64,000 bases of DNA, from assembly GCA_964036295.1 (NCBI GenBank), contig OZ038465.1:3357115-3421114 (forward strand), given 5' to 3'. The notes under the pieces are model-generated. The model did not search any database. It saw nothing but the letters and a program-made list of their open reading frames with translations, and was not told the origin of the DNA. Shown piece by piece: positions 14,299-54,019 of this stretch. Position numbers and translations under genes: made by a program. The number at the start of each line of letters is the position of its first letter. Position 1 is the stretch's first letter. This stretch comes from Plumapathes pennacea (taxonomy: Eukaryota; Cnidaria; Anthozoa; Antipatharia; Myriopathidae).

Positions 14299-14429
14299 TT
14301 GCTGTCTTGGAAAATCCCATGCACAGTGAATATAACATTTCTATCTTTCACATGTGACGATATTGCACGTGATGAAAATATCAGGTTTTAGAACAGGTGA
14401 AATCCTGGTATTTCATTGATATCTACTGC

Positions 14430-14687
<258 letters not shown>

Positions 14688-15045
14688 TACTATCAATGTG
14701 CCAAAAACTAGAATATCCTGCATGAAGCAAACATTTCTTCCTTTTGCCTGAAGGAGATCAGATATTGATCTGAAGAAGCTTAGCTGCTATACATATGCTG
14801 CAGCAGCAAACTGTGATGTATTTTGCTTGGATTGTGATTGACATGTACTGATATTGACTGTAGGTATAATAAAAATGCCAATACCAGTAATAGAGATGCT
14901 TGTACCTAGAACTAGCATGTAATACATTAGAAAAACAATAACTCAAGTTTACCATGTAACATTTGCCAGGTAGTCTTTTGCTCTGGAGCAGTTGTCCAAC
15001 AGGAACTCCAGTTGTGAAACAAATATCATGGTTCCAGGTCAGATT

Positions 15046-16559: not shown

Positions 16560-17489
16560 ATGGAATTGGTGACTTTGGGCGTCGGATTACTCCTGTTTGT
16601 GATTGCAGTCAGTGGAAACGGTCTTCTTATCTTTCTGATCGTTCGGCGACGAAGCCTCCGAACAACAAACAACAGCTTCGTGTTATCACTCGCCCTGGCC
16701 GACTTTTGTTGCGGCTTATTTTACGCATCTGCTCTTCTCAGTAAGCAATTTAATCCTGCAAGTTTCCTCCTACTCGGTCGAATCATGCGTTACTTGCTAT
16801 ATGTGTCAGTGACCAATCTTTGTGCATTAACACTGGATCGCTACCTGGCTATTGTTAATCCTCTGAGATACGTCGCGCTCATGACTACAAGGCGCATTTT
16901 CTTCCTGATAACGCTGGCATGGGGTATTCCAGTTGTAATATATCTGGCTCCCTCCTTTGCTTTAAAGTTTGGTACGTCAGGAGAATACAATATCCACTTC
17001 GTGACTTTCCTTTGTGTTATCCAAATTTGTGTTTGTGTGCTTCTACTCCTTGCCACAACGCGTATATTCCTCATCGTTCGGAGACATGCGAAACGAAACG
17101 TTGTCGTGGTGAAACAGCTGATGTTTAACCACACACTTCAATACGGCAGAGCGTTCAGACCTCAAGAAGCTGCATCAGCAAGGGTTGTTGGATCTGTTGT
17201 AGGCATCTTTATCATTTGCTATGCCGTGAACACTTATAACAATATCTGTCTCGTTGGATTATGCAAAGCACCGAAAGCATTCAAACTATATAATGTTACT
17301 TTGTTGCTTAAGGTGGTCAATTCTGTTGTGAACCCCTTTGCCTACGCCTTCTTCAAGAAAGACGTCAAGAAAGAGCTAAAGCGTTTTCTTTCATCGTCAC
17401 TTCATCGAGCACCAGTGATTCCCATGCATCTGATACGAAAGGAGTCAGAGAAGAGGGGATATCTTAGTGGGGAAAGCTTGGTCAGTTGA
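16560..17489 (+). CDS. Class A GPCR 1 of 6, melanocortin/adenosine-like, cysteine-poor variant
   Basis: A 309-aa seven-helix receptor on one exon. The first ATG in the conserved register (16560) places GNG (N1.50) at residue 20. LALADF (D2.50 = 48), DRY at 93-95, PLRY in loop 2, a TM4 tryptophan and NPFAY in TM7 identify the rhodopsin family. TM5 lacks the usual proline and TM6 reads GIFIICYAVN instead of a CWxP form. Unlike the other five, it has neither the ECL1 cysteine nor the TM3 cysteine (position 3.25 is Phe69). ECL3 keeps the C-x4-C pair. Its tail is the longest of the set, ending RGYLSGESLVS, with Ser/Lys-rich sequence. An acceptor-like AG at 16534-16535 suggests a non-coding first exon. 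Ligand unknown. AATAAA lies at 17583-17588. Confidence 0.88.
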   Translation: MELVTLGVGLLLFVIAVSGNGLLIFLIVRRRSLRTTNNSFVLSLALADFCCGLFYASALLSKQFNPASFLLLGRIMRYLLYVSVTNLCALTLDRYLAIVNPLRYVALMTTRRIFFLITLAWGIPVVIYLAPSFALKFGTSGEYNIHFVTFLCVIQICVCVLLLLATTRIFLIVRRHAKRNVVVVKQLMFNHTLQYGRAFRPQEAASARVVGSVVGIFIICYAVNTYNNICLVGLCKAPKAFKLYNVTLLLKVVNSVVNPFAYAFFKKDVKKELKRFLSSSLHRAPVIPMHLIRKESEKRGYLSGESLVS

Positions 17490-18195
17490 TGATAATAGAA
17501 GTTAATTAAGACGCGGAGGTGGCCTGTCAGCTGTCTTTTGCTTTTCAGTGATTAAGAAAGTGCGTTCACGAACTGCATATGAAATAAATACAAGATTCGT
17601 ACGACGATATACAGTCCTATGTTTAAACTGTATTTATATACTTCAGAACAAATATCGTGTTACCAAATAGTCAGACAGTTTTTTGACACTTAAAATCTGA
17701 TTAAATTTTAAATCAGTTCTTGCGTATTTTGTTGTTGTAATAAGAGCCGTGTACGTTAATAAGTTAATAATGTGGCCAGCGGTATTAAGAGTTCTAGATT
17801 CAATCAAGTGAAGTAGTAATTCGATCGGTTTCTTTACGCGAAGAATAAAGATCGTTTGTCCAAGGATATACAGATTTAAGATAACTGACTTATCCACACT
17901 GCAACTCCAGGTATATCCATTGTTCGTTTATCGTCCCTTTCTTCTTCGTCATTTATATCAAACTGCTCTTTAAAACTACTGATGTCATGGCTAAAAAAAC
18001 AGTTAATAATCCTTTAACATAACATCGTTGCGTGTTAGTAATGCATTCATGGCCAAGGCGATAACATGATACTAGAATTACATTTGTCAGTTCAATAAAT
18101 ACACCTGCCTTCTCTTCCTCCTACCTATTAGACACTTTTCCTTTTGTATGTTTCTTTTGTTTAGCAGTAAAAGGCCAGTTCTTATCTAAGTGAAG
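17490..18195. other. Intergenic stretch between GPCR 1 and 2
   Basis: Contains the likely polyadenylation signal AATAAA at 17583-17588 and, near its end, a T-rich acceptor (AG at 18163-18164) that probably starts the GPCR 2 exon. No other feature seen. Confidence 0.5.
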
Positions 18196-18255
18196 ATGAC
18201 ACTTCTTTGGTCCTTCGTCATTGGATTACTGTTTGCTGCAGTAGTTTGTATCTAA
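18196..18255 (+). other. In-frame upstream mini-ORF duplicating the start of GPCR 2
   Basis: ATG at 18196 opens 19 codons ending in TAA (18253-18255), in the same frame as the receptor that starts at 18262. It reads LLWSFVIGLLFA, clearly a diverged copy of the receptor start (LWSSVTGLLLA). The preceding TATCTAA..GAAGATG context is also duplicated, so this is an approximately 66-bp tandem duplication. A ribosome scanning from the 5' end would meet this ATG first, so it may act as an upstream ORF that lowers expression. Confidence 0.7.
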
Positions 18256-18261
18256 AGAAAG

Positions 18262-19149
18262 ATGTTTATACCTCTTTGGTCCTCTGTCACTGGATTATTG
18301 TTGGCTGTGATTGCTGTTATTGGGAACGGTCTTGTCATTTACCTGCTCGCCGTGCGAAGAAACCTTCGAACTTGTGGCAACTACTTCTTGTTGTCGCTCG
18401 CTGTGGCTGACTTTAGTTGTGGTATTGTTCATCCTTTTCATTATTCTATTTGTTACTTTGATCAGTCGGGTGCCAGTTGTATCATCATAATCGGTGTCCA
18501 GTACTACTTGTTTTATGCATCAATAACCAATCTCTGTGCATTAACACTGGATCGTTACATGGCTATAACAAAACCTTTAAGGTACATCACTTTTATGACT
18601 ATCAGACGCTTTCAGTTCCTGGGAACGACTGCATGGTTGCTGCCACTCCTCGTATTTGTTCCACTCTTCCTAGCGTCGAGATTCGAAGCATTTGGTCAAA
18701 GGACATTGGCCTTTAAGAAGTGGTTCCTAGCTTTACTATCCTTTATTCAAGTTAGTGTTTGTTTGGCTTTAATCCTTGCCACGACACGTATATTCCTCGT
18801 CGCTCGCAGACATGCGAGACGAAATGCCATCATGATGAAACAGCTGATGTTTAACCACACACTTCAACAAGGCAGAGCGTTCAGACCTCAAGAAGCTGCA
18901 TCAGCAAAGGTTGTTGCATCTGTTGTAGGCATCTTTATCGTTTGCTATGCCGTCAACATTTATTCCAATATCTGTCTCGTAGATTTGTGCAAAGCACCAG
19001 AAGCAATTTATTTTATAAGCACCCTGCTTAAGCTGGTCAACTCAACTGTGAATCCCATTGCGTATGCTTTTTTCAAGAAGGACATCAAAAAGGAACTTAA
19101 GCGATTATTTTATTCGATTCAGAGGGCTTCAGTGACTCCCCACCTGTAA
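18262..19149 (+). CDS. Class A GPCR 2 of 6, melanocortin/adenosine-like
   Basis: A 295-aa single-exon receptor. Landmarks: N22 (1.50), D50 (2.50), ECL1 Cys64, Cys73 (3.25), DRY 97-99, W125 (4.50), CYAV 228-231 where CWxP is expected, ECL3 Cys238 and Cys243, NPIAY 264-268, then a basic helix 8 (FFKKDIKKELKR). ECL2 is short and has no cysteine, and TM5 has no proline; both are traits of the melanocortin/lipid/cannabinoid/adenosine receptor group. Its 3' half and 3' flank (18501-19373) are nearly identical to GPCR 6 and probably the donor of that tract. Likely a plasma-membrane G-protein-coupled receptor; ligand and G protein not deducible. Confidence 0.9.
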   Translation: MFIPLWSSVTGLLLAVIAVIGNGLVIYLLAVRRNLRTCGNYFLLSLAVADFSCGIVHPFHYSICYFDQSGASCIIIIGVQYYLFYASITNLCALTLDRYMAITKPLRYITFMTIRRFQFLGTTAWLLPLLVFVPLFLASRFEAFGQRTLAFKKWFLALLSFIQVSVCLALILATTRIFLVARRHARRNAIMMKQLMFNHTLQQGRAFRPQEAASAKVVASVVGIFIVCYAVNIYSNICLVDLCKAPEAIYFISTLLKLVNSTVNPIAYAFFKKDIKKELKRLFYSIQRASVTPHL

Positions 19150-20528
19150 CAAAGTGAGAAAAACAAGAAACAACGCTTACTTAGTGATTTAAAGGCGGTG
19201 TAAAGTGCTACTGGCCGGTAATCAAAATGTTCATTTTTTGGTCAGCAGCAACCTCTTCTCTTTATGAGGAGTGTCAATTTTTAGTACTTCTATAGTCTGG
19301 CTAAATTTATGACCTTTACTTTGGTCAGAGTCCACCGTCTTATTATGAGATTCATGAGAAACAAATTTGCATTTTATCATTGTCTGCTATCGAACATTTT
19401 GGCATGTTCTAAATTGACCTAAAAAATTCTCTCGATGTTTTATGGTGTTTAATGATAACCTGAAAAGGGCAAGAAAAGCGAAGCATTTGAACTTTCATTG
19501 TTTGGAAATCCCTCGTAATCGCTCACAAGAAATAATAATTAAATTCTGGAACAGTGCCACCGGTTTGAGTCCCGTGCGTTGAAGTTTAGAAACGAAAATT
19601 ATAGGGCGCGGAGCCGCCTGTCAGCCATTTTGTAGAGCCTCTAAATGGCCATTTCCGAAGTGGTCTAATTTGAAAGCCAAATAACAGTTTCTAGTCACTG
19701 TTTAGCTGGTGCTGCTTCGTTTTATATTAATTTTTTTCTTTTCTCATTTTGGGCCCTGAATTCTGTTCAATTGGTCTCCTTATCTGTGGCTGATCAGTAA
19801 TGCCGCGAACGGCTGCACCAAAGGGCATCTATTTCTGCCAGCAAATGAGAATAATAGGTTCGCAAGGTGTACGTGCATGTGTCAATTGCGAGGTAGTATT
19901 ATCTGCGCGGTATTGAAAGTCAGATTGATTTTGTGGACGTCAATGCTTCTGGTGAGTTTTACGTACGACCAGTTTTGAGGTTGTTTCGAACTATTTTTCG
20001 CTGTTCGCGATGAAACTCGACCTCGAAATTCTTCTGTCAGAGCCGCCTGCCCCACACCAGGGATTAAAGGGTCTGAAACACAGGAAAGACCTCGGACAGT
20101 AGTCTCGTGAGGTTCTGTGAAGGAGTTTCGATGAGACAGAAACTTTCGATAGGAGTTGCGATATTTATATAATCACACACAGGCTCGTCAGCTCAGCCAA
20201 AGTCATCACAGAAAAAGAAAATTAAATTACGGTCCAGCCTTTCAGGATTTACCTGTCATATTTAATTTCATTTCCCGAAGTTGTTTTTGCTGTTCAACTT
20301 TCGATATAAGGATATAAGGGTTGTTTTTTCTTCTTCTTTGATGTGGTTGACAGGAGGATACTGGAACTCCCCGGATAACAACGATAATAGACGCGCGCAA
20401 TGCGCCCTGGTTGAGAGGGACCCTTTAATAACAATTCAGCATCCAAAGAAAATCGACGGCTTTTCTGAAGTTTGATAACAGTTCACCTACATATTCGTCG
20501 GCGGGAAAGCGTCGTTTGCACTAGAAAG
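19150..20528. other. Intergenic stretch between GPCR 2 and 3
   Basis: The first ~220 bases are the near-identical flank shared with GPCR 6. The remainder has no recognised gene or long repeat. Confidence 0.5.
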
Positions 20529-21416
20529 ATGTTTATGCCTCTTTGGTCCTCTGTCACTGGATTACTGCTGGCTGTGATCGCTGTTTTTGGGAACGGTTTT
20601 GTCATTTACTTGATCGCCATGCGACGAAACCTTCGAACTTGTGGCAACTACTTCTTATTGTCGCTCGCTTTGGCTGACTTCAGTTGTGGTCTTGTTCATC
20701 CTCTTCATGATGCTGTCTGCCACTTTGCTCAGTCGAGTGCCAGTTGTACCACCATCTCAAGTATCCGGTACTACTTGTTTTATGCATCAATAACCAATCT
20801 CTGTGTATTAACATTGGATCGTTACATGGCTATAACAAAACCTTTAAGGTACATCACCTCCATGACTACGAGGCGCTTTTGGTTCCTGGGAACGACTGCA
20901 TGGCTGCTGCCACTTCTCGTATTTGTTCCACTCTTCCTTTCACTTAAGTTTAAAGCATTTGGACAGATGCATTCGATATTTAAGATATGCTTTCTTTTCT
21001 TTCTGTGCTTTTTCCAAGCTATTGTTTGTTTGGCTTTACTTCTTGCCACAACACGTATATTCCTCGTCGCTCGCAGACATGCAAGACAAAACGCCATCAT
21101 GGTGAAACAGCTGATGTTTAACCACACATTTCAACACGGCAGAGCGTTCAGACCTCAAGAAGCTGCATCAGCGAAGGTTGTTGGATCTGTTGTAGGCGTC
21201 TTTGTCGTTTGCTATGGCGTCAACATTTATACCAATATCTGTGTCGTGGATTTGTGCAAAGCACCAGAAGCAGTGTATGTCATTTCCAATGTGCTTAAGC
21301 TTCTCAACTCCGCTGCGAATCCCATTCCGTATGCCTTTTTCAAGAAAGATATCAAGAAGGAACTTAAGCGATTATTTTGCTCGCTTCAGCGGGTTTCAGT
21401 GAGTCCCTATCTGTAA
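20529..21416 (+). CDS. Class A GPCR 3 of 6, melanocortin/adenosine-like
   Basis: A 295-aa single-exon receptor with the same residue numbering as GPCR 2. The frame is open further upstream but without ATG; 20529 matches the other family members. Its first third is close to GPCR 6 (MRRNLRT, HDAVCHFAQ, TISSIRYY), while TM5 (KICFLFFLCFFQ) has diverged strongly from both. The TM6 motif is CYGV. In TM7 the sequence is NPIPYAFF, an extra proline inside NPxxY not seen in the other copies. Cys64, Cys73 and the ECL3 pair are present. The TAA stop overlaps an AATAAA hexamer at 21415-21420, which may or may not be used. Confidence 0.9.
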   Translation: MFMPLWSSVTGLLLAVIAVFGNGFVIYLIAMRRNLRTCGNYFLLSLALADFSCGLVHPLHDAVCHFAQSSASCTTISSIRYYLFYASITNLCVLTLDRYMAITKPLRYITSMTTRRFWFLGTTAWLLPLLVFVPLFLSLKFKAFGQMHSIFKICFLFFLCFFQAIVCLALLLATTRIFLVARRHARQNAIMVKQLMFNHTFQHGRAFRPQEAASAKVVGSVVGVFVVCYGVNIYTNICVVDLCKAPEAVYVISNVLKLLNSAANPIPYAFFKKDIKKELKRLFCSLQRVSVSPYL

Positions 21417-23205
21417 TAAATTATTAATAAGGCGGTGGGTGTCCCTTTAACTGTTCTGCTGCAACCTTCTCTTCATGGGTAACAAGTTCTTGTGCCTCTA
21501 TAGTCTGGCTAAATCTATGACGTTCACTCTTATTAGAGAATGGGAACATATTTTCTGCCATTAAGCAAAGGGCAGGCATTCGAATTTTTGCCATTAGTTA
21601 TATATTAGCTGTTTGTAAAAACTTAAAGCAACACGAGCCTTTAAAAGTGACGTCACACAGAATAGATTGTAAGATTTTATAAGATAAGGTGGATGGTACG
21701 CGCAATCTAATTGCTCAAGCCAACGTGCATCACACGCGTACATCAACCTGATGATAGCCCGGCATTAGCTTGAATTGATTTCAGCCTCTCTTTAGTTTTT
21801 CCCCACGTTTCTGGTTGGTTGACCAACCAGATGAATTTTCACCTACAATATGAATTAACAATTAAAATTACCAAGAACTCTATAGGTGTTTCTCTGGTTT
21901 GATCAGGTGCAGAATAGGCAGAAGTGTTGGCCCCTTTCACTGCCGAAAGAAAGTTTGACTAAACCAAGTTCTAAAACATTAAACTCCTGCAATGTTAAAT
22001 GGAAAAAAAAAAAAAAAAAAAAAAGAAAAAGAAAAAAAGAAATCTAGTGAAATGTGATCAGTGAAACGAAAAGAACTCTTGATGAGAATATTCTAATATA
22101 AGAATATTAACGTGTTAACGTTGTTGTTGATTAGAATTTTTCCTTTTAGTAATTTTGAGATTAACTTGGACAAAGACAGCAGTAAAAAATAGTACTTTAT
22201 ACAAAGAGTTGCTAGTAGAGTAAACGAAACAGGATAAAAGGCGTGTGTGGCATAAAATCTGTTTTGCTATAGCTGCACCCACACTATATAGTATTCAATG
22301 CTGGAGCCTTTCTTATTCAAATGTAACCTTACATTTCTGAGCAATTATTTGAATTGCTTGCACTGCCATTGTTAGTCTTAAAATTAAAGTTTCGTTTTTA
22401 CACATATGTGCTAGTTTTGTTTTCTGCCAGATGTCATCGCGGTTCCTTTGAAGTGATGTAGAAACTGCGGTCAAGACCAAAAAATAAAGAGCGTTTTTGT
22501 TTTTATATTAGAGTGATTTCGTATAACCCTCTCACTGTGTGCTAATGAGTTCCACTAAATTCTAAAAGCTAGCACACACACATACATGGACATAGACAGA
22601 AGGAAGAGACTGAGAGACATGGGAATAACACTCTAAGCGCGGAAATTATATACCAGGTTTTGTTCCACGGTTATTCAGCGTATTTCGGAATTTAGCCACC
22701 TACTCGTAGACGCTCTTTCCTAAAGGCTATAATCGAGCTAATTTCTTACAAGAGAGCTGGTATTTTGTTTCTTAGTAAAGCTTGCGATATTGAAATAATA
22801 CTGATCGTGAAAGTTAGGTGTCAACCGTGCACTGTTTATTTATCCAAATCATGCTTTTGTGCATTGTTTCGTCTCATCACATTTAGAGGAGATCATTAGC
22901 ATATAAAAATCGGGTTGTACGAAGTCACTCTATTGGTTGTTTTCTGTGATCTCTGTTACATTGCGTATGCCAGTGTTTCGTTTCGTTTCCGTCCATGTGT
23001 TAATTATTTCGCCGGTTCCTGTTCATAAGGGTGTTCACTTACCGGAGATAGGGAAAGGAAACGACATAGTTCAGAGGTGGTATGTTGGTCACTTACGAGA
23101 GGTCACATGATAGATGGAGATTTGACTGAGCAACAGTCAGTATCTTGGACGTTCAGGGAGTTTACACTTAATTTTTTTTCTTTTGCAAATTACTTGAGAT
23201 GTGAG
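21417..23205. other. Intergenic stretch between GPCR 3 and 4
   Basis: Flank with similarity to the region downstream of GPCR 6 (GCAGGCATTCGAAT near 21570, TAAGATAAGGT near 21680), an A-rich run at about 22003-22040, and otherwise AT-rich sequence without a gene. Confidence 0.5.
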
Positions 23206-24084
23206 ATGCCGTCCGTTTCGTTTCTAGTCATCGGATTGTTTGTCTCTGTTTTAACAATTGGCGGCAATGGTCTTGTCATTTACCTGGTCGGTGTACGCCG
23301 GAATATCCGAGCCACAAACAACCACTTTGTGCTTTCCCTCGCTGTGGCTGACTTTGCCTGTGGCGCTGTTCAATTACTTTATCGCTTCTCGTGTTACTTT
23401 CGTCAATGGAGCACCAGTTGTTCTCTGATACCAATTGCCCAGTTCTACTTCATGTATGTGTCAGTGGCCAATCTCTGTACGTTAACACTGGATCGTTACC
23501 TGGCTATTATAAGGCCGTTGCGGTATATCACCTTCATGACTTCAAGGTGCATTCTGTGTCTTGTAGCTGTTGCGTGGGGCCTTCCACTTATCCTGTTTCT
23601 TGCTCCGTACATTGCATTGAGGCTTGCTTCACCACCTGGACAAGCGCCATCGGTATTTTGGAAGTGCTTTCTAGCTGTATTTTCTTTCCTCCAAGGCTGT
23701 GTTTGTTTGGCATTACTGTTTGCCACAACGAGTATTTTCATCGTTGCTCGGAGACATGCGAGACAAAACGCTGTTATAATTAAGCAGCTGAGCTTTAACC
23801 ACAGAGTTAGACGCACCGGAGCTTTCAAGTCTCAGGACGCTGCCTCATGCAAGGTTCTGGGGTCTGTCGTGGCGATCTTTATAATCTGCTATGTTCTGAG
23901 CATTTATGACAACGCCTGTTTCTTAGGATTATGTGAAGCACCAGGGGCATTTTACTCGTTATACATAACCACTACCCTTAAGGTTGTCAACTCGGCTGCC
24001 AACCCCATTGCGTACGCTTTTTTCAAGAAAGACATCAAGAAAGAGCTGAAGAGATTACTGTGTCATTTCAGAAGGCGTCAGTGA
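23206..24084 (+). CDS. Class A GPCR 4 of 6, melanocortin/adenosine-like
   Basis: A 292-aa receptor if started at ATG 23206, which puts the first helix (FLVIGLFVSVLTIGGNG) at the same distance as in its neighbours. Another in-frame ATG at 23107 would add 33 residues with no similarity to the family. Motifs: LAVADF, ECL1 Cys (FSCYF), Cys3.25 (STSC), DRYLAI, TM6 GIFIICYVLS.. with no tryptophan or proline at the switch, ECL3 CFLGLC, NPIAY and FFKKDIKKELKRL. The loop 3 sequence (KQLSFNH) is conserved but the following segment (RRTGAFKSQDAASCKV) differs from the GRAFRPQEAASAKV form of copies 1-3 and 6. Confidence 0.88.
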   Translation: MPSVSFLVIGLFVSVLTIGGNGLVIYLVGVRRNIRATNNHFVLSLAVADFACGAVQLLYRFSCYFRQWSTSCSLIPIAQFYFMYVSVANLCTLTLDRYLAIIRPLRYITFMTSRCILCLVAVAWGLPLILFLAPYIALRLASPPGQAPSVFWKCFLAVFSFLQGCVCLALLFATTSIFIVARRHARQNAVIIKQLSFNHRVRRTGAFKSQDAASCKVLGSVVAIFIICYVLSIYDNACFLGLCEAPGAFYSLYITTTLKVVNSAANPIAYAFFKKDIKKELKRLLCHFRRRQ

Positions 24085-25276
24085 CTCGCTTTTGGGATCA
24101 GAAATATGGAGCGAGAAAGAGGAATACTGTGGTGGTGGTGGTGGTGGTGGGAATTGTTCTGCTGTGTCTTGATTTAGATTTGGAGACAATCATTATTTAG
24201 CCGTGTAGGTGGCACAAACTTTGTATTTCTCATTTTAATCTTGGTTTATGTAAATGTTGCATGTATTCTGCTTCAATCTCTACTCTTCCCCCACCCCCCC
24301 TCCCCCCCCCCCCCAACTTCATCACAATGTCCGACTGTTGGTCAGTTCTAGTTTTGAGTTACTTGTCTTGAGGTTTTACGAGCGTTCAACGAACTACAAA
24401 ATCTGTATTTGAATACACAGTTTTGTGCAATGACCGCTGACTCAAAAGCAAGGTGACTGCACGGCGAAAAACCTATTTCCACGATGTCCATTAACGGCTT
24501 GTACTGATGGTTATGATCAGCAGCCGCTTTAAAAACTTTATATTGTACATTTACGTCACAGTCGTAGTAATTATCCTCATGTTCGTTTATTTTATGGTGC
24601 GGCTAAATGACATTTCTGCCAAACATACAACATTCGAAATTAAACCATTTCAAGTTTTACTTGCTATCATCATTACACTTCTAGCCTATATGATCCTGAA
24701 AACACCAATTTCTGGATAACCAATACTACATTGCAAGCACTGACAACTGGGGAAATCTTGTTGCATTGCCCGCACAACTAATAAGGTTTGAAGGATCATT
24801 ATATTGAAGTATGAATTAGCAAGTAAAATTTCATGATCTTTCAGCAAGAAACTTTCTTGTTTGATCAGTATATGGCTATCTGTTTTCAGATTTCAGATTT
24901 CAGATTTATGCTTATGAGGATGAATAGTAAAGCTGACTGAAAGAACCCGAAGATTGGCGTTTCTAGTTAAGCGAATATAGATTTTCTTTCTTAACTGTAT
25001 AATTTCTTTTTGGAAAACTATTTTTCAGATATCACAATTTTTAGCTCGAATTGGAATAATATTTAATCCCAGCATTTCATATGATTATGTTAGGCGTCAA
25101 GGTGTGATAGAGTAGGGTTTTGTGTTCATGAATCTGCTGTGAGACACTTCATTTGAAGGGTATAGGTTCGCACCGAACATCTGCTGATCTTGATAAGAAT
25201 AATGTATTTAAAGAACGTTAAAATTAAAATTTTGTTCGCTTGTGTATTTGTTTAGGAAGAACTTGATGGTTCTAAT
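24085..25276. other. Intergenic stretch between GPCR 4 and 5
   Basis: Contains a (GGT)n run at about 24129-24151 and a C-rich tract at about 24290-24315. A 70-codon open frame at 24507-24719 is hydrophobic but has no family features and is not called. An acceptor AG at 25254-25255 (after a T-rich run) precedes GPCR 5. Confidence 0.5.
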
Positions 25277-26149
25277 ATGAGATTGGAGGCACCTCGGTGG
25301 TTCGAGATAATCGGGTTTTTCCTCGCTTTAATAACAGTCACTGGCAACGGTCTTACCATTTACCTCATCGTCGGACGACGAAACCTGCGAACCTTGAGCA
25401 ACTACTTCGCGTTGTCACTCGCTTTTGCTGATTTTGCCTGTGGTGTAGCCCAAGTGGCCGCCGTGTTTAGTGGCTGCTCGTTCCATGGATCACCCGCTAG
25501 GTGTGTCCAAGTTTCTAGTACCTTGATATACTTTCTTTACGTGTCAATAACTAGCCTTTGTTTCCTAACATTGGATCGTTACATTGCTGTTTTGAAACCG
25601 CTGAGGTACATCTCCATCATAACATTAAGGCGTATTATATCTCTGGTAATTGTGGCATGGGGGCTTCCTCTTCTTGTATTCCTTGCCCCTCACCTTGCAC
25701 TTGGAACGCCAGGAGAAAAACCTTTGTTATCCAAAACGCTTCTCTTGGTTTTTATTTCTTTCTTTCAAATATGTGTTTGTTTTGGGTTATTGTTTGCCAC
25801 AACACGTATTCTTCTCACTTCTCGGAGGCATGCAAGACAAGTCACTACACTTCGTAGACAACTGTCCTTCAACCACAGCATTCAGCAGCCTAAAGCGTTC
25901 AGGCCAGAGGTAGCTTCGTCAGCCAAGATGGTGGGATCCGTTGTTGCGATGTTTATAATCTGTTATATTTTGGACATTTATGGCTTTACCTGTCTCGTGG
26001 GACTTTGCGAAGAACCAAAGACAGTTTCCTATTTAACACCCCTACTCAAGTTAACCAATTCAGCGGCAAATCCCATTGCTTACGCCTTTTTCAAGAAAGA
26101 CATCAAGAAGGAACTCAAACGATTACTTCGTCACAGAGGTTGTCGATAG
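25277..26149 (+). CDS. Class A GPCR 5 of 6, melanocortin/adenosine-like, most divergent
   Basis: A 290-aa single-exon receptor. The N-terminus (MRLEAPRWFEIIGF) differs from the others, but TM1 has TGNG, TM2 LAFADFACG, TM3 Cys3.25 and DRYIAV, and TM7 NPIAY with FFKKDIKKELKRL. ECL1 has a cysteine (SGCSFHG). TM6 is MFIICYILD, again without W6.48 or P6.50. ECL3 is CLVGLC. Loop 3 reads RRQLSFNH, and the block after it (QPKAFRPEVASSAKMV) is one residue shorter than in its neighbours. A likely 3' splice acceptor 22 bases before the ATG suggests a spliced 5' UTR. AATAAA lies at 26446-26451. Confidence 0.88.
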   Translation: MRLEAPRWFEIIGFFLALITVTGNGLTIYLIVGRRNLRTLSNYFALSLAFADFACGVAQVAAVFSGCSFHGSPARCVQVSSTLIYFLYVSITSLCFLTLDRYIAVLKPLRYISIITLRRIISLVIVAWGLPLLVFLAPHLALGTPGEKPLLSKTLLLVFISFFQICVCFGLLFATTRILLTSRRHARQVTTLRRQLSFNHSIQQPKAFRPEVASSAKMVGSVVAMFIICYILDIYGFTCLVGLCEEPKTVSYLTPLLKLTNSAANPIAYAFFKKDIKKELKRLLRHRGCR

Positions 26150-26658
26150 TCGCGGAGAGGCAATATTCAGATATTACTAAGGATAGGAGTACCTTCAAAT
26201 CCGTTTGTTGAAGGAGTTTATTGACGGTCACTGTAGACCTCGGCAACCTCCCCAGTACAACATGATTGAGTTTATTAGTGATGGCTCACTTTGGAGAAAG
26301 AAAAACTCGATATGATGTAAATAATGTTTTTATTTTATGCATTGTCAGTGATAATGTACTATAAATTCGTAAACGTAATGTCCATGGCCATGCATTTTTT
26401 ATTTGCAAAATAATAGCTTCGGTCGAGTAAATTTGCACACTTAAAAATAAATTCTTAAAATTTGCATGATCAAGCCAGTACTATAAAGTTATTGTACTTT
26501 ATCTATTTGTATTGTAAACATCATAACTTTCTGACATAGTACCGGCACAAATAGCAGTAGTTTCCCTAACAGCATCTAGCATTTGTCGTAGTTGCACCAA
26601 TCATGTGCATATATATATATATATGATGCGCAGATTATTGCCCAGGAGACTGATACTG

Positions 26659-26691
<33 letters not shown>

Positions 26692-28249
26692 TAATACTCT
26701 GGTTTGTCCATACGTAGAGCAGCGATCGCCCTGACTTTTTGTAAAACTCCTATTGAAAACGGAGAACCCTCCTAATCAAAGAAAGATTACAAAACCATGC
26801 AGCATTTTTGTCTCCCGTCTGCATGAAAAAAGAAAACGTTGGTGATAAAAGGTTTCCATTCGAAAACACTGCTAAAAACTAAGGAATCGTTTACGAGAAC
26901 GCTCCGGTTTTCGTTTCCATGATCGATGTTCGAATTTGACCTAAAAACGAACTGAACTGGGTACGAGAAACACGCTCTTGTTAACACACTCTGCTTATCG
27001 AATATTTCTTCTGCGCATGTGCGGCTTCTGGTCGAGATGTATAATATTATGTTCGGTTGATCTAAAATGCAGATATATTATATAGCACCCTGTTATCTCG
27101 AGAATAGTGATGTTAGTGTATAGGAAATATAACTTTCTTGTTTTTGGAATTCACACACGTATGTTAATGACATTTGTATATAGACGACGTGCGGCGCAAG
27201 CAAAGGAAACATTTTGATCCTTTGTGCTTTGCGTCCAGCTTGTTTTCACTGTGGTGCCAGGATTCTTGTGAGTGCGCTTGTGCTTGCGTCGCTGTGAAAC
27301 CGGGCTTTAGGTGAACTTCCGTGCGTAAAACTCGTAAATGTATAAACTCTCTATGAACGACAAGTTGTGCAGTTCTTGGAGTAATTGTGAAGTGTAAAAT
27401 ATTGTTAAAAAAAATTAAATCCAAAGTAAAAGCCGTGCCACATTTGCCGGACAAAATAATTTAAAATCCTGTCAAATTATATAATATATGTCATTGTTTG
27501 GCGTATGTCAAGAATAGGCATCGATCCATTTCTATTTTTTCAAAGCTGTTACCTATCAAGTTTCAAACCGGACTTATTCAGCGAGTACCTAGGTATGTTT
27601 TTGACTTTGGGTTCTCTGGTTGTTCAAACTGCTCGATTGAGCTATCACACGATTAACCAAATCCTTTCTCTTCGTTCTTTTTGCCAACAAACTGCAGAGT
27701 TTTGATCAAAGACTATAAACGGAAATGGAAAGGGAGTCGTTGTGAGCGAAAGGTTCTTATTTTTATGCTATAACATGAGTAAATAGTTCAGACGTGCTTA
27801 AGTTTTTTTAATTACGGATTTTTCCAATTAACCAAGAAGGAAATGTACACATGATGTAGTTAGAATATGAAGCCGAGTCAGCTTTCATTTGAGCAAGCCG
27901 CAGCTATGAAACTCCATCGTAAATTACATATTTAGAGAAACTGAAGGAAAAATTTGAAGTTGTTTACTCTCCTATTCACAAAAGACATATTTCAGACTTC
28001 CGAGAAACATCTGGTTGCATTTCAATATAGTTTTCATGAAGATTCAACCTAGTTCCCGTTTGACCAACATGTACAATAGAACCTACCATAAGCGGGCGGT
28101 ACATACGGGAGGTCGTCGCTTACGAACAAATTTGATAGGTCAGTTTAATAAAAGCATCTGCGTCTTTCTGCTCGTTGGAGACTTTTTTGTTTGTTTGTTT
28201 CTTTTTTAGTCAGCATAAACAGGCCGCGGTAGTCCGTATCTAAAGAAAG
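26150..28249. other. Intergenic stretch between GPCR 5 and 6
   Basis: Includes (AT)n runs at about 26609-26624 and 26676-26691 with an A tract between them, and a region near 27180-27320 with GCGCAAGCAAAGG / GTGCTTGCGTCGC motifs typical of a dispersed inverted repeat. A T-rich acceptor ends at 28209, 41 bases before the GPCR 6 start. No gene seen. Confidence 0.5.
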
Positions 28250-29137
28250 ATGTTTATACCTCTTTGGTCCTCTGGCACCGGATTACTGTTGGCTGTGATC
28301 GCTGTTATTGGGAACGGTCTTGTCATTTACTTGATCGCCATGCGAAGAAACCTTCGAACTTGTGGCAACTACTTCTTGTTGTCGCTCGCTTTGGCTGACT
28401 TCAGTTGTGGTCTTGTTTATCCTCTTCATGATGCTGTCTGCCACTTTGCTCAGTCGATTGTCAGTTGTACCACCATCTCAAGTATCCGGTACTACTTGTT
28501 TTATGCATCAATAACCAATCTCTGTGCATTAACACTGGATCGTTACATGGCTATAACAAAACCTTTAAGGTACATCACTTTTATGACTATCAGACGCTTT
28601 CAGTTCCTGGGAACGACTGCATGGTTGCTGCCACTCCTCGTATTTGTTCCACTCTTCCTAACGTCGAGATTCGAAGCATTTGGTCAAAGGACATTGGCCT
28701 TTAAGAAGTGGCTCCTAGCTTTACTATCCTTTATTCAAGTTAGTGTTTGTTTGGCTTTAATCCTTGCCACGACACGTATATTCCTCGTCGCTCGCAGACA
28801 TGCGAGACGAAATGCCATCATGATGAAACAGCTGATGTTTAACCACACACTTCAACAAGGCAGAGCGTTCAGACCTCAAGAAGCTGCATCAGCAAAGGTT
28901 GTTGCATCTGTTGTAGGCATCTTTATCGTTTGCTATGCCGTCAACATTTATTCCAATATCTGTCTCGTAGATTTGTGCAAAGCACCAGAAGCAATTTATT
29001 TTATAAGCACCCTGCTTAAGCTGGTCAACTCAACTGTGAATCCCATTGCGTATGCTTTTTTCAAGAAGGACATCAAAAAGGAACTTAAGCGATTATTTTA
29101 TTCGATTCAGAGGGCTTCAGTGACTCCCCACCTGTAA
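28250..29137 (+). CDS. Class A GPCR 6 of 6, mosaic of copies 2 and 3
   Basis: A 295-aa single-exon receptor with all the residues listed for GPCR 2. The first ~80 codons follow GPCR 3 (LIAMRRN, LALADFSCGL, HDAVCHFAQ, TISSIRYY). From codon ~81 to the stop the protein matches GPCR 2 except Ala/Thr and Phe/Leu changes (LTSRFEA, KKWLLAL). The DNA match continues past the stop to 29361 at a constant offset of 9988 bases, then the flank becomes GPCR 3-like again. This is the footprint of gene conversion. The ECL1 and TM3-entry region, where copies differ most, comes from the GPCR 3-like parent, so the mosaic joins one outer face to another core. Confidence 0.92.
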   Translation: MFIPLWSSGTGLLLAVIAVIGNGLVIYLIAMRRNLRTCGNYFLLSLALADFSCGLVYPLHDAVCHFAQSIVSCTTISSIRYYLFYASITNLCALTLDRYMAITKPLRYITFMTIRRFQFLGTTAWLLPLLVFVPLFLTSRFEAFGQRTLAFKKWLLALLSFIQVSVCLALILATTRIFLVARRHARRNAIMMKQLMFNHTLQQGRAFRPQEAASAKVVASVVGIFIVCYAVNIYSNICLVDLCKAPEAIYFISTLLKLVNSTVNPIAYAFFKKDIKKELKRLFYSIQRASVTPHL

Positions 29138-31791
29138 CAAAGTGAGAAAAACAAGAAACAACGCTTACTTAGTGATTTAAAGGCGGTGTAAAGTGCTACT
29201 GGCCGGTAATCAAAATGTTCATTTTTTGGTCAGCAGCAACCTCTTCTCTTTATGAGGAGTGTCAATTTTTAGTACTTCTATAGTCTGGCTAAATTTATGA
29301 CCTTTACTTTGGTCAGAGTCCACCGTCTTATTATGAGATTCATGAGAAACAAATTTGCATTCAATAAACACCGAGCAGGCATTCGAATCTCTGCAATTAG
29401 TTTTGCGTAGCTTATTAAGAAAAGAACAAAAAACAAAACAAAACAAAAAACAAGAGTTTAAAATATTTCTCACAAAATGTATTGCTCTTTATCCGGTTTA
29501 GAGACCTTGTTAGAGTGTAGCTTTAATAATTTTGCCAGCCGGCACCTTATTAGATTTTTGTAAGATAAGGTAGATGGTAATCTGATTGGCATTATGGGGA
29601 AGCACTTGACAATGTCATCAGAAATTTGTCATGTGTGTTTATTTCACACATCCATGCTGACCACCATCTGGTAAGTAAAAACTTAAAAAAATAATGTGTT
29701 AACCTGCGGATACAAGGCTTCATATCAGGGCACTTCTCGGAGGTCATTTCAGAGATGCCCACTTGCGGGTCGAAAACTATGCCAGGGGACCAATTTCTCA
29801 CACCTGGCTGAAACAATTTGGGCGCAAAATTTGTCCGAAAACGCTGTAATCGCGACCACAGATAGCTCGTAGGTAAATAAACACCAAAGCAAAGTTTCAC
29901 TTCTTTTATTTGAGTATTTCCTAAATTATTTTGCGCCATCTAGATCCCCACTCAAACTCTTATAAAATGAAAACTCGCTTCCAGGCCCCCTGAGCCTGGG
30001 TTGTCTGTGGTTTATTTTACTTTTCCACCGCGATTTTTTTTTTTTTTTTTTTTTTTTCAGGTTGTTTTGAACTGCATATGTGTGGTGCATACCTTTTCCC
30101 ACACCCAGTTCTGAAAGACTTGTTGTCATTTATTCTGAATTCTGAATATATTCTCCAATTCATATATTGACAGTTTTGGTCGATTAAAATATTGTTTTGT
30201 CATGTTGAGGTCGGCTTATCAGAAGTTAATTGCGAGAGCGCATTTTAGACTGACAGCCAGCAGCTGGCAGTTTTGCGGTGTGCTTTTCTATATAAACTTG
30301 TGATCATAAGAAGGCGGGCATCTGCCATTTTACGAGCGAACGGTATAAAAGTGTTTGTTCGTCCAGAGACGAGTAAACTGCCATTAATACCTATAGCTCA
30401 GAGGCAGAACTTTTCTTTAGTTGAACCTAACATCTTGAAATTTCGGTATCTGAGTTAATAATTAAAGTAATGCGATCATGCAATTTATACTCCACAAATT
30501 TTCCTTAAATTCGCTACAAAGACTCCTTTTGTGTACCAGATTTGTAGAGACCTATGTAGGTCACCGAGCTAGTTTTTGCGTTATTCCTGTGTGTTTCCAA
30601 AATTTGTCTTGTCGCACGGCGGCCATATTGAAATGACGTCATAGTTTGTAACACGAATAAAAGGCTCCTGTGAGCCAACTCGTGAATGAGAAACGCTATA
30701 GATCTATCCTCTGTATATAGCATTAGAAAATATAGCATTGAAGCCATACAAGTACTCTGATTATTTTAGCCAATGCTACGGTTCAAAGTTGCTAAAAAGC
30801 TTTCGATCGATCGAACTGTAAAATCCAGGTGAAATCCGCAGTTCGGTCTTAATTTCAAGAATATGTGCCTTGAGAATCAAAGGACTCCAAACGTGAAAGA
30901 TCAGTTCGTCACTTTTGGGACCATTCTCGGTCGCAAACTGGCCGCCATTTTGTTTGCAAGGCCTGCGCCAGTGTTATGCACTGGTCAGCGGAACCCGTTT
31001 CCGCCGGAAGTTTACACCCATGGAACACAATGGCCATTGTTAACAGACATGGAACGGGTGAATTCCTCCCAACCGTTATAACTTTTTAATTGCTTCGCAT
31101 TCACGAGTTAAAAACGTTGTGGGGCGGAGAGCATGCACGAAAGTGAACTCTGTTGTGTTTCTTTATGTAAAAATGTCATGAAAAACATACAAGAACGTGA
31201 CTTTCACAGTTGATAAAAATGACAACAAGTTAGTAGAACTACGATCGTGCGCAAGAATGAACCGAATGCAAATGAGCAAAAACCATTGTTTTAACTTGTT
31301 TGCATTAGGCTCGGCACATCTGAGGAGCGGCGTCTGAAATGGGCCTAAGCCTGGTTTAATATTTTGGCTTTAGAGCAATTCTGATTCAGACGCCGAACTT
31401 TTCATTAGTCCAACCTATTAATGCAGCAATCATTAACTGAATCAAAAGGCGGGATTTTAAGTTATGCTCATGTAAAGTTCGGCGTCCGAACTGGGACTTC
31501 CTAGCATTTTGGCAAGATTTAAGACAGGTAATTTTTTTCCGAACTAAAACAACGAAAAAAGTGTTTAGATATATCTCGATCGGCTGAAGCCGCCATTTTT
31601 AAATGTCATCATGTACGACGTCATAGATGGGGCCTGGGAAAGAGCCTTACAGACGGACAGATGGAACGCGTGTTATTATAAAGATATGCCTGTTTTTGTT
31701 TTTGCTTTTTTCTTGTACAACAGACTCAAATTTTTCAGATGTGGGAAATCAATGTGCTAATAAGTTTTCTTGTTTCATTTTCTGTAAACAG
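29138..31791. other. Region between the GPCR cluster and the RCC1 gene
   Basis: Starts with the converted flank (to 29361), then a GPCR 3-like flank to about 29590. A T tract lies at about 30033-30058. Around 31328-31490 GGCGTCTGAA and TTCAGACGCC copies form an imperfect inverted repeat. The 5' exon(s) and promoter of the following gene must lie somewhere here, but I could not identify a start codon; the ATG at 31627 is open through an apparent intron and is not trusted. Confidence 0.45.
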
Positions 31792-34700
31792 GATCCCGCA
31801 CGAGTCATCCGCGCGTTTGCCCTGGATCCGAGTGGTTCGTGGCTCGCGTGTGCGTGCATGGATACACACGTTTACATTGTGCCAGTGGGTGCTGTGGTCA
31901 AGGTTTGTTTAACATTTTCACTCTTGATCTAGTCATACCAATTCTCCCAACCTTGAAATAAGAAAGTGTGTGAGTGATTTAGTGAGAAGTGATAGTTTCA
32001 CCAGCTTTCATTAGCGCAAGCTGTCAGAAGTTCTCCATACTGTATGATGTATCTGTGGTGAGAAACAAGAAAAGAGAGAAGAGTTCATCAGCCCCAGGAA
32101 TAAAACAGGTGAAATAATTACAGCCTATGCCCAAAAAGTGGACTACACAAAGTGGCCAACAAACCTACCTTAGAAAGTAAAAATTGTTTTTCGCCTACTA
32201 AACTTTCCGAACTACTAGTGACGAAATTTATAACACCCTTGCGACTGTGCCTCTGTCTGACCAACTGATTGACTTCTCTTTGCCATCCTTCTAGCCGTAA
32301 CAAGGTTGGAGGTATTACGCTATTAGTGTTAATTTAGTCTGCTTTGTTTAGGGAAATGCCAGCGGTTCGAATTCTTCATCATGGTCCACTGATGACATCA
32401 CAAGGTTACAAACAAACGCCAGACGAGGTAGGGTACTCGTACTGCAACTGAAGTGTAACTAAGCACTATGTGGATTGGACGCATGTACCACTGCCACTGC
32501 CCTTTTTATTATTTAGACACGAGTGTTTTACTGGAAAATATACCGTGCGTAAAATCCATACGAAAGTACCTCCGGGACCCGAGTGGCGTATTTTCCATAT
32601 CCTCACCAGTGAGGATATCGTTGGCATCATTTCCCGCTTTTGCACGGTTGTTTGTGCAATTTGTCGTAAAACACTCGTGTCTAATATAATAAAAAGAAAA
32701 TTACACGGCGGCTTGAAGATATGAATTTTATTTTCTCGTGATAAAAACAATATTTTACTCACTCGCGAAGCGCTCGTTCGTTAAATATATTGTTTTTACC
32801 ACTCGAAAATAAAATTCATATCTTCGCGCCGCCGTGTAATATCCTCTATATATGCTTTTTCTTAGAAGAGTGATACTTACTTATTACTTATTATCAATTT
32901 ATTACGGTTTTTTCTTTGGGTCTAATTGATTTACTAGTTAAGAAGGCCCCGTTATCAGCACGAGCGAGAAGTAAATTATAACAAAACAGAGATAATAATA
33001 CGGGGAAAATGCAGTCTGTTACATCTGTTGGCAACAGCAAGAGCAGTTTGACTGTAATTTTGTTCCACTCTCTCTGCAGGTTTGCCTTCTAGCATCGTGT
33101 GGTGGCACACAGTAGATGACTTTCACATCTGCATTGTTGGCACTGAGGTAATTGGGAGTGCGAAGACGTTCTCAAAGTGGCATATTTAAAAAAATACTGT
33201 ATTTTTCAAAAAGTTTGTCTGTGCACTCTATAGTGTTGATACCGTGTTCTTTTTTATAGTTTGGCGAGGTAATTTTTCTAGATGTCAAAGCTGGTGGAGT
33301 TGTAGCATCAGCCGATGTGAAAGAGAGTATCACAACACTCGAGCTGTTACAGGACAAGCAGCACGAAACAACGGCTCTAATGGTACAGCATGTCTGCCTC
33401 TCATTTTGATTTCACTATTTACGAGCATTGTTATTAGTTCTATTTTATTAGCTTCATCACCGGTAGATAATTACAGACATAACACACTGAGTAACACTGA
33501 CACTGACAAACAGTGACAGGGCGATTGTAACAGCAGCGCCAATTACTGCGCGCCTCTCTGACGAGTTCCTTTCTAGCTTCAGACATTTTTCTTTTAGTTG
33601 TTAGTGTTGCTGTAGCCTTCACTTATGCGTCGGGTTTCTAGAATTCAACAAAGCATGCTAATGCGTAACTTTTTAAAATCTGTTATCTTCTGTTCTGACC
33701 TAACCACAACTCTAATCTTTCATAGATTACTTCTGTATCAGGAGAGACTTGGCAGATGTTGTTAGAATACAAGTCTGTACGAAAAGCAAGCTTTAACCAG
33801 ACCGTTAGTCCTTCGATAGCCTTCTCCATGGGATATGAGATGGTTGGGAAAGTGGCCATACCACTTGACAGTGTCTTCTCAAGCACTGGGAACTTGCAAG
33901 AGCGACTCAGGCCCATGCCAGTGCAGGTAAGTGTTATGCTACTCAGTGGATACGCCTGATACGCAAGACCTAATTGTTTACTAGAAATACGATAATCGCA
34001 GATACCCCCTCACTCTGCCATTGATGGGATATTACTTTGGAAACTCCCAACAAGAGTAGCCTTTGTTTTACCGAAATGTTGACTCAATCTTTTCTTCGAA
34101 CTCAAGTGCTACACGCAAAGGAAGGAGAAAAAGAATGGTGTGTGTTATACTTTTGCGTTGAAAAAAGAATCGATTGCGTGACGAAGTACGTATTTCCCAC
34201 GGTCGGCACGTCAAATTAATTCATACAGTCTTCCAAGCACGTTCTCAAAATTTAATACTCAAATTTTGAAGTTGGTCGGCCGTCGTAGTACGGGAAAAAA
34301 GGAACACTGATTTTCCAATTTTGAATTCATAGGCAGTACAATTAAATAGGCTTCCTGTGCGATTTGTTTTTACTCTGGATTGCATGCTCCAGACTCAGGC
34401 ATGCATATTTAATAGGCTCGAATTGTTTTGTATGTCAACCCACTCAAAACAGCAAGATTTCTCCCAGAATCAAAGCAAAACTTGAACAGTTTACTTCAAA
34501 TTATACACGGGCTTCAGACCCAGTAATACGTCTAAGTGTTTGTGAACGATTCTCGCTGCAATCACCGCGTGTCAGATTACAGAAAATAAGACATCTGACT
34601 AAATTATTCAAGACTCCAAGTTCCGATTGCTCTGAGCGAATACGGTAGCCGAAACTGGCGAAAATGATCAGCATACAGATTTTAGTACATTCTTGAAGTG

Positions 34701-43700: not shown

Positions 43701-43941
43701 GAAATGCACGGCAGTGGCTTGTGGACACCACCACTCCCTGGCACTGTCTGCTGACTTCAGGGTGTGGTCCTGGGGTTGGGGCGTGCACGGACAGCTGGGA
43801 CATGGAGGAATTGAGGACGTCCTGTTGCCAAGTCACGTGACCTCTCTTGAATCCAGTGAAGTGACACAGCTGGCCGCTGGGTATTCTCACAGTGCCGTGT
43901 TGACATCACAGGTGAGAGAAATGGACAATTTAGTCTAAAAT

Positions 43942-43979
<38 letters not shown>

Positions 43980-53743: not shown

Positions 53744-54019
53744 TTTAGAAAGCTTCCTTTACGAACAGCGTGTTGGTTTTGATCAAATGGCGTCGCGTTG
53801 CTATGAAAACGTGTTTGTATCCCACAAGCCTTTGGGTGCCGAATACATCCCAGGGGTCTTCAGGGGCTAAAGATGTCCCAGAATGCCCGGCGGCGGAGAT
53901 GAGGTGTTATGGCGATCAGAAGAACACGTGTATATTGCTTGTAGTTGGCATTTAGGCTTTTCTTTCTAGATTCACTTACAAAGCTTTCGGGGTTTGCGGC
54001 CCCTCGCAGCAGCATCAGG
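53744..54019. promoter_or_regulatory. Probable bidirectional promoter, CFAP276 / FAM120
   Basis: 276 bases separate the divergent start codons. The segment has CG dinucleotides (GCGTTGG, GGCGTCGCG, CCCGGCGGCGG), no convincing TATA box close to either ATG, and no repeat. Head-to-head spacing this short implies shared control, or at least 5' UTRs that overlap in promoter DNA. Two ATGs within it (e.g. 53787) are not in the FAM120 frame. Confidence 0.65.

Follow-up and report, generated by a model that had tools for sequence, protein, structure and literature searches.

The disulfide bond between the third transmembrane segment (TM3) and the second extracellular loop (ECL2; ECL1 and ECL3 being the first and third loops) is one of the features that vary least across class A G protein-coupled receptors (GPCRs), and its two cysteines, C3.25 and C45.50, occur in more than 90% of the class (PMC9287403; this and the other papers cited below are drawn on as excerpts). 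Exceptions have been described: both cysteines are absent from CB1, the melanocortin receptors and MrgD (PMC9287403), and the bond is absent from the lysophosphatidic acid (LPA) receptor LPA1 and the sphingosine 1-phosphate (S1P) receptor S1P1 (PMC7652349). In MrgD a C4.64-C5.33 bond is formed instead, and its mutation markedly lowers surface expression (PMC9287403). With regard to the other loops, there is evidence of an ECL3 bond in the melanocortin receptor MC4R (PMC2738427), an ECL1-ECL2 bond has been described (PMC4489612), and a pocket between ECL1 and TM3 has been reported, as have engineered ECL1-ECL2 bonds (PMC10419011). Here we compare these systems with a tandem cluster of six class A receptor genes in a window of 64,000 nt (the whole stretch of DNA that was analysed) from Plumapathes pennacea. 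Judging from their sequences, these six receptors probably hold their outer face together by a bond placed unlike that of most related receptors.

The cluster resembles MrgD in being of class A with the TM3-ECL2 bond apparently given up for another extracellular bond. However, MrgD lacks C3.25, as do CB1 and the melanocortin receptors (PMC9287403), whereas five of our six receptors keep it, with a likely partner in ECL1, and none of the six has a cysteine at 4.64 or 5.33, the MAS-related positions. The proposed absence of a TM3-ECL2 bond is a likeness to the melanocortin, cannabinoid, S1P and LPA receptors, none of which is named among the best 60 of the 474 matches that a profile of the family obtained in the PDB. 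A C3.25 retained with its partner in ECL1 was not found among the matches listed in the open-licence literature on disulfides and conserved cysteines. The best PDB matches among those listed (best 60 of 474; another PDB search gave 586) are aminergic and adenosine receptors, with alpha-2 adrenergic, dopamine D2 and 5-HT receptors as best or near-best matches and the adenosine receptor A2A among the best. A2A shares with the cluster receptors a short N-terminus. It also has an ECL1 bond and a TM6-ECL3 bond, yet the former connects ECL1 with ECL2, and A2A retains the TM3-ECL2 bond as well as the proline kinks of TM5 and TM6 (PMC2738427), whereas C45.50, P5.50 and P6.50 are missing from all six cluster receptors.

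Six receptor genes and their class A features

Six uninterrupted open reading frames (ORFs) lie in tandem on the forward strand between 16560 and 29137, every one of them covering all seven TM segments. They were called from the genomic letters alone, and upstream exons are possible.

16560 to 17489, + strand: copy 1, class A GPCR, 309 aa; intact ORF, Pfam 7tm_1 E-value 2.1e-26; F3.25 and no cysteine in ECL1
18262 to 19149, + strand: copy 2, class A GPCR, 295 aa; cysteines C64, C73, C238 and C243
20529 to 21416, + strand: copy 3, class A GPCR, 295 aa; additional C5.38
23206 to 24084, + strand: copy 4, class A GPCR, 292 aa from this ATG, the frame being open further upstream; additional C5.38
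25277 to 26149, + strand: copy 5, class A GPCR, 290 aa; ECL1 one residue longer, with the same C-x8-C spacing
28250 to 29137, + strand: copy 6, class A GPCR, 295 aa; intact ORF with Pfam match

Pairwise identity among the copies is 50-93%, and copies 2 and 6 are held in a 1139-bp duplicate (18235-19373 and 28223-29361, 96.8% identity). We detected no seventh copy, fragment or pseudogene in the window by tblastn with all six (E up to 0.01), the only three matches outside the ORFs being extensions of copies 6, 2 and 4 beyond their stop codons. Nor were confirmed relatives found outside the window among viral contigs (searched with copy 6 and with two alignments, one of them comprising four of the six copies and three PDB receptors) or genome contigs (searched with copy 6), collections that are viral and prokaryotic and have little bearing on animals.

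With the longest ORF frames as query, all six receptors match Pfam 7tm_1 over profile positions 1-260 of 260, at 90.9-108.9 bits against a cut-off of 30.5 bits, and all six retain N1.50, D2.50, DRY, W4.50 and NPxxY. By contrast, P5.50, W6.48 and P6.50 are absent throughout, being replaced by V5.50 and Y6.48 in every copy and by V or L at 6.50, such that positions commonly linked with activation in class A are altered across all six receptors. P5.50 and CWxP6.50 are common in class A without being universal, and P5.50 is also absent from several of the melanocortin, cannabinoid, S1P and LPA receptors. The aspartate at 3.32 with which aminergic receptors bind amines is likewise missing, this position being M, Q, R, Q, L and R in copies 1-6. 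The cluster consequently differs from the alpha-2 adrenergic, D2 and 5-HT receptors at 3.32, in having Y6.48 for W, and in its lack of C45.50, P5.50 and P6.50. As for the canonical cysteines, C3.25 is present in five of the six copies and C45.50 in none; class A membership nonetheless stands, given the precedent of MrgD, CB1 and the melanocortin receptors, which have neither cysteine, and of LPA1 and S1P1, in which the bond is missing.

Cysteines of the outer face

Copies 2-6 carry a C-x-F-x6-C motif in which a cysteine of ECL1 stands exactly nine residues before C3.25, the codons of the two cysteines being 27 bp apart. The codon positions are:

18451 to 18480, + strand: copy 2, ECL1 motif C23.48-x-F23.50-x6-C3.25
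20718 to 20747, + strand: copy 3, ECL1 motif
23392 to 23421, + strand: copy 4, ECL1 motif
25475 to 25504, + strand: copy 5, ECL1 motif
28439 to 28468, + strand: copy 6, ECL1 motif

In DRD4, W23.50 (W98) lies seven residues before C3.25 (C105; PMC6872212), and the numbering of Y2R is concordant (K117 being 23.51 and C123 being 3.25; PMC10419011); the ECL1 cysteine is therefore 23.48, and the invariant phenylalanine two residues on is 23.50, the class A aromatic position. In copy 1 the corresponding residues are L at -9, K at -7 and F at 3.25. The initial annotation was thus right to place a cysteine in ECL1 and another at 3.25 in five receptors, and to describe copy 1 as lacking both.

It went too far in taking ECL2 to be free of cysteine throughout. 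This is so in copies 1, 2, 5 and 6, and under the topology set by alignment none of the six copies has a candidate for C45.50, but copies 3 and 4 carry C5.38, 12 residues before 5.50 (a position located by alignment, the usual proline being absent). The corresponding distance for C45.50 of DRD4 is 19 residues, as derived from the numbering in PMC6872212, and C5.38 is consequently assigned to the vicinity of the top of TM5, leaving no normal C45.50. Copies 2, 5 and 6 therefore have one extracellular pair in ECL1/TM3 and another in ECL3, four cysteines in all, and copy 1 has only the two of ECL3. A further cysteine, C5.44, occurs in copies 1 and 3 and is counted as lying within the membrane.

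The C6.57-x4-C6.62 pair that had been noted in ECL3 of all six receptors is indeed present in each, with codons at:

17247 to 17264, + strand: copy 1, ECL3 C6.57-x4-C6.62
18973 to 18990, + strand: copy 2, ECL3 C-x4-C
21240 to 21257, + strand: copy 3, ECL3 C-x4-C
23917 to 23934, + strand: copy 4, ECL3 C-x4-C
25991 to 26008, + strand: copy 5, ECL3 C-x4-C
28961 to 28978, + strand: copy 6, ECL3 C-x4-C

The C6.57 column (C238) also holds a cysteine in the three solved receptors that we added to the alignment (A2A, alpha-2B and 5-HT6). A resemblance of this pair to the ECL3 bridge of melanocortin receptors had been suggested, but ECL3 bridges occur in A2A and DRD4 as well (PMC2738427, PMC6872212). 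We also rejected a melanocortin kinship of the cluster, no receptor so named appearing among the PDB matches listed in either search (best 60 of 474; best 60 of 586). Furthermore, the melanocortin trait of having no cysteine at 3.25 is found in copy 1 alone, the other five copies having C3.25.

A further observation concerns the setting of the ECL1/TM3 pair. Among the 27 alignment columns of the block formed by the top of TM2, ECL1 and the top of TM3 (residues 55-80), only C64, F66 and C73 are invariant in copies 2-6, as compared with one of 23 columns in ECL2 (G145) and four of 17 in ECL3 (C238, L242, C243 and P246). The four cysteines hence account for four of the eight invariant residues over the block, ECL2 and ECL3. 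The block and ECL2 are together the least conserved stretches of these proteins, block identity falling below that of ECL2 in 9 of 15 pairs: it is 38-88% within copies 2, 3 and 6, 15-35% in the pairs 2-4, 2-5, 3-4, 3-5, 4-5, 4-6 and 5-6, and 8-19% between copy 1 and copies 2-6. It is this selective conservation, more than co-occurrence, that argues for a function of the cysteines, and a local ECL1-TM3 bond is favoured because C64, F66 and C73 are the sole invariants of an otherwise variable block.

We narrowly favour a reading with several parts, taken jointly, in which C3.25 has left its ECL2 partner and bonds C23.48 in a shortened ECL1, ECL2 is untethered, C6.57 and C6.62 bond with each other to close ECL3, and copy 1 is free of the ECL1/TM3 staple. 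With no partner on offer in ECL2, C23.48-C3.25 together with C6.57-C6.62 would be the simplest pairing, and the fact that the extracellular cysteines of copies 1, 2, 5 and 6 come in even numbers counts in its favour. The C-x-F-x6-C staple would fix the TM2-TM3 turn and hold the aromatic residue at 23.50. In the M4 receptor W23.50 is reported to stabilise the conserved TM3 disulfide (PMC10229135, whose wording is a bridge "between ECL1 and TM3", taken here as the canonical TM3 bond), and in DRD4 position 2.64, W23.50 and C3.25 surround one crevice (PMC6872212), placements that put 23.48 in the right neighbourhood of C3.25. Moreover, peptide receptors tolerate loss of the canonical bond to differing degrees (PMC10419011), so that receptors with ECL2 left free, or with no staple as in copy 1, are both credible. 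ECL1 would then evolve quickly while the staple is retained, and its variation may alter ligand choice. If this reading is true, the family amounts to a natural experiment on the function of the bond, the TM3 cysteine having been kept and given a new partner, and copy 1 beside five relatives forms a matched set for testing the effect of bond loss.

Exchange between neighbours and the remodelled copy 1

A tract of approximately 100-150 bp over both cysteines has been converted between copies 3 and 6. Its limits are:

28391 to 28488, + strand: copy 6, minimum extent of the conversion tract; a run of 24 variable sites that none of 100000 shuffles reached
20670 to 20767, + strand: copy 3 side of the tract, shared with the copy 6 tract

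The tract spans the top of TM2, ECL1 and the top of TM3. Among the 130 variable sites of copies 2, 3 and 6, copies 2 and 6 agree at 97, copies 3 and 6 at 26 and copies 2 and 3 at 6, all three differing at one. Within the 24-site run (codons 48-80) copies 3 and 6 agree at 21 sites, copies 2 and 3 at three, and copies 2 and 6 at none, a run length that was reached in none of the 100000 shuffles. Within a wider bounded block of 147 bases, 24 differences separate copy 2 from copy 6, as against 9 in the 741 bases outside it, whereas copies 3 and 6 differ at 3 of 147 as against 101 of 741. Divergence between copies 2 and 3 is the same inside (21 of 147) and outside (103 of 741), which indicates that copies 3 and 6 were the partners in the exchange and that copy 2 received nothing. 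Silent differences between copies 3 and 6 follow suit, with none in 23.5 sites in codons 47-80 and 43 in 185.7 sites outside (Fisher p 0.005, from rounded counts). Since large class A expansions are known from corals (PMC10236652) and gene conversion from tandem chemoreceptor clusters such as mouse V1R (PMC2644715), the cluster and conversion as such are ordinary. The tract shows that the outer TM2-ECL1-TM3 turn can pass between genes in one piece, which offers tandem clusters an easy way of producing new receptors. Both cysteines travelled together with the block, so that copies 3 and 6 represent a single case and the six copies are not independent.

The corresponding region of copy 1 is the following:

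16716 to 16766, + strand: copy 1, remodelled top of TM2 and ECL1 up to F3.25; aligned block 8-19% identical to copies 2-6

Here the loop appears to have been replaced wholesale rather than stripped of two cysteines. The stretch from D2.50 to 3.25 is two residues shorter than in copies 2, 3, 4 and 6 and three shorter than in copy 5. Of the 112 columns on which copies 2-6 agree, 18 differ in copy 1, all three block invariants included, while copy 4 deviates alone at 15 columns (none in the block) and copy 5 at 16 (one in the block). The statement that copy 1 keeps all other hallmarks therefore does not hold, F23.50 having been lost as well and the stretch shortened by two to three residues. The joint presence and loss of the two cysteines had furthermore been taken to imply that they pair with each other; this is still the most economical pairing, yet the co-occurrence itself is a weak argument, amounting to one 5:1 split (Fisher p 0.167) in two neighbouring codons of a tract that was converted in one piece. 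Phylogenetically, copy 1 groups with copies 2, 3 and 6 (bootstrap/Shimodaira-Hasegawa-like approximate likelihood ratio test support 92/96 with three outgroups; 95/93 for the same split in an unrooted tree with no outgroup and residues 44-92 dropped), and from this position loss is a simpler history than gain. Copy 1 may thus have been given a replaced, staple-free ECL1, having lost the pair rather than never having had it.

We consider it fairly probable that the joint absence in copy 1 is uninformative on pairing, a single segment event (conversion by a donor outside the window, or remodelling with deletion) having removed the ECL1 block. Such an event would explain the joint loss without coevolution, as copy 1 lost all three block invariants (random placement of its 18 solo changes hits all three with a probability of 0.0036, a post hoc figure) and its loop is two residues shorter than that of copy 2. 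Silent divergence in codons 47-80 points the same way, at 0.81 for copies 1 and 3 as against 0.42 outside (Fisher p 0.0015) and 0.73 for copies 1 and 2 as against 0.45 (p 0.022; rounded counts in both cases), and a conversion tract of like size exists between copies 3 and 6. However, codons hit more than once inflate the silent counts, values of 0.84 inside as against 0.60 and 0.63 outside are also seen in the pairs 4-5 and 2-5, and there is no donor for the copy 1 block within the window. A segment event is in any case compatible with the C23.48-C3.25 bond and bears only on the argument from co-occurrence. That copy 1 is instead a decaying gene, its missing cysteines being damage, would accord with an ECL1 unlike that of any other copy, but is highly improbable; we rejected pseudogene status on account of the intact ORF, the presence of all TM anchors, and pairwise ratios of nonsynonymous to synonymous divergence (dN/dS) of 0.31-0.44 against the other five copies.

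Other pairings merit consideration alongside C23.48-C3.25. Cysteine counts alone would fit equally well if C23.48 and C3.25 bonded with the ECL3 cysteines or with another receptor molecule, the ECL3 pair of copy 1 closing on itself. We regard this as unlikely, given that copy 1 retains the ECL3 pair without the other two cysteines, that C6.57 aligns with a cysteine in A2A, alpha-2B and 5-HT6, and that A2A has a local TM6-ECL3 bond (PMC2738427). The occurrence of C5.38 in both copies 3 and 4 raises the prospect that it has replaced C45.50 there and bonds C3.25, an arrangement we find extremely improbable: C5.38 is absent from copies 2, 5 and 6, which have the same ECL1 pair, and C23.48 would be left alone. 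C5.38 as a moved C45.50 was rejected on its distance of 12, not about 19, residues before 5.50.

Several points weigh against a C23.48-C3.25 bond that was lost from copy 1. The approximately unbiased test does not reject a tree that places copy 1 outside the other five (p 0.103), and a joint gain would fit such a tree. Copies 3 and 4 have, besides their four extracellular cysteines, an odd fifth in C5.38. The pair is carried by only about three independent lineages (copies 2/3/6, 4 and 5), all of them within the window. Finally, AlphaFold2, run with copy 6 first in a six-row alignment, gave no usable distance (mean predicted local distance difference test score 45.5, predicted template modelling score 0.24). 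Allowing for these points, we tentatively put forward the more doubtful idea that the 10-residue staple (C23.48, F23.50 and C3.25) is a portable cassette, which would keep the fold during diversification of ECL1 and be swapped by short conversion tracts between neighbouring genes, leaving some copies staple-free.

Neighbouring features of the window

Upstream of the receptors, an FMO-like exon lies at 1643-2164. It is followed at 4639-9911 by units with recurring translations (minus-strand ORFs at 4639, 6830, 7977 and 9125; plus-strand ORFs at 5090, 6217 and 9594), which are a dispersed or tandem repeat array. A long three-base microsatellite at 14401-14751 would read as runs of Asn, Ile, Leu or Tyr depending on frame.

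Downstream, RCC1-repeat exons at 42306-44988 and a WD40 match below cut-off at 31627-31929 perhaps belong to one neighbouring gene (31627-44988). A 163-bp stretch at 32689-32851 matches its own reverse complement at 79% and is possibly an element resembling miniature inverted-repeat transposable elements. The ORF at 53945-54892 contains MGVHNLQSFVETNC and has no Pfam match; we take it to resemble a FAM120-type N-terminal domain.

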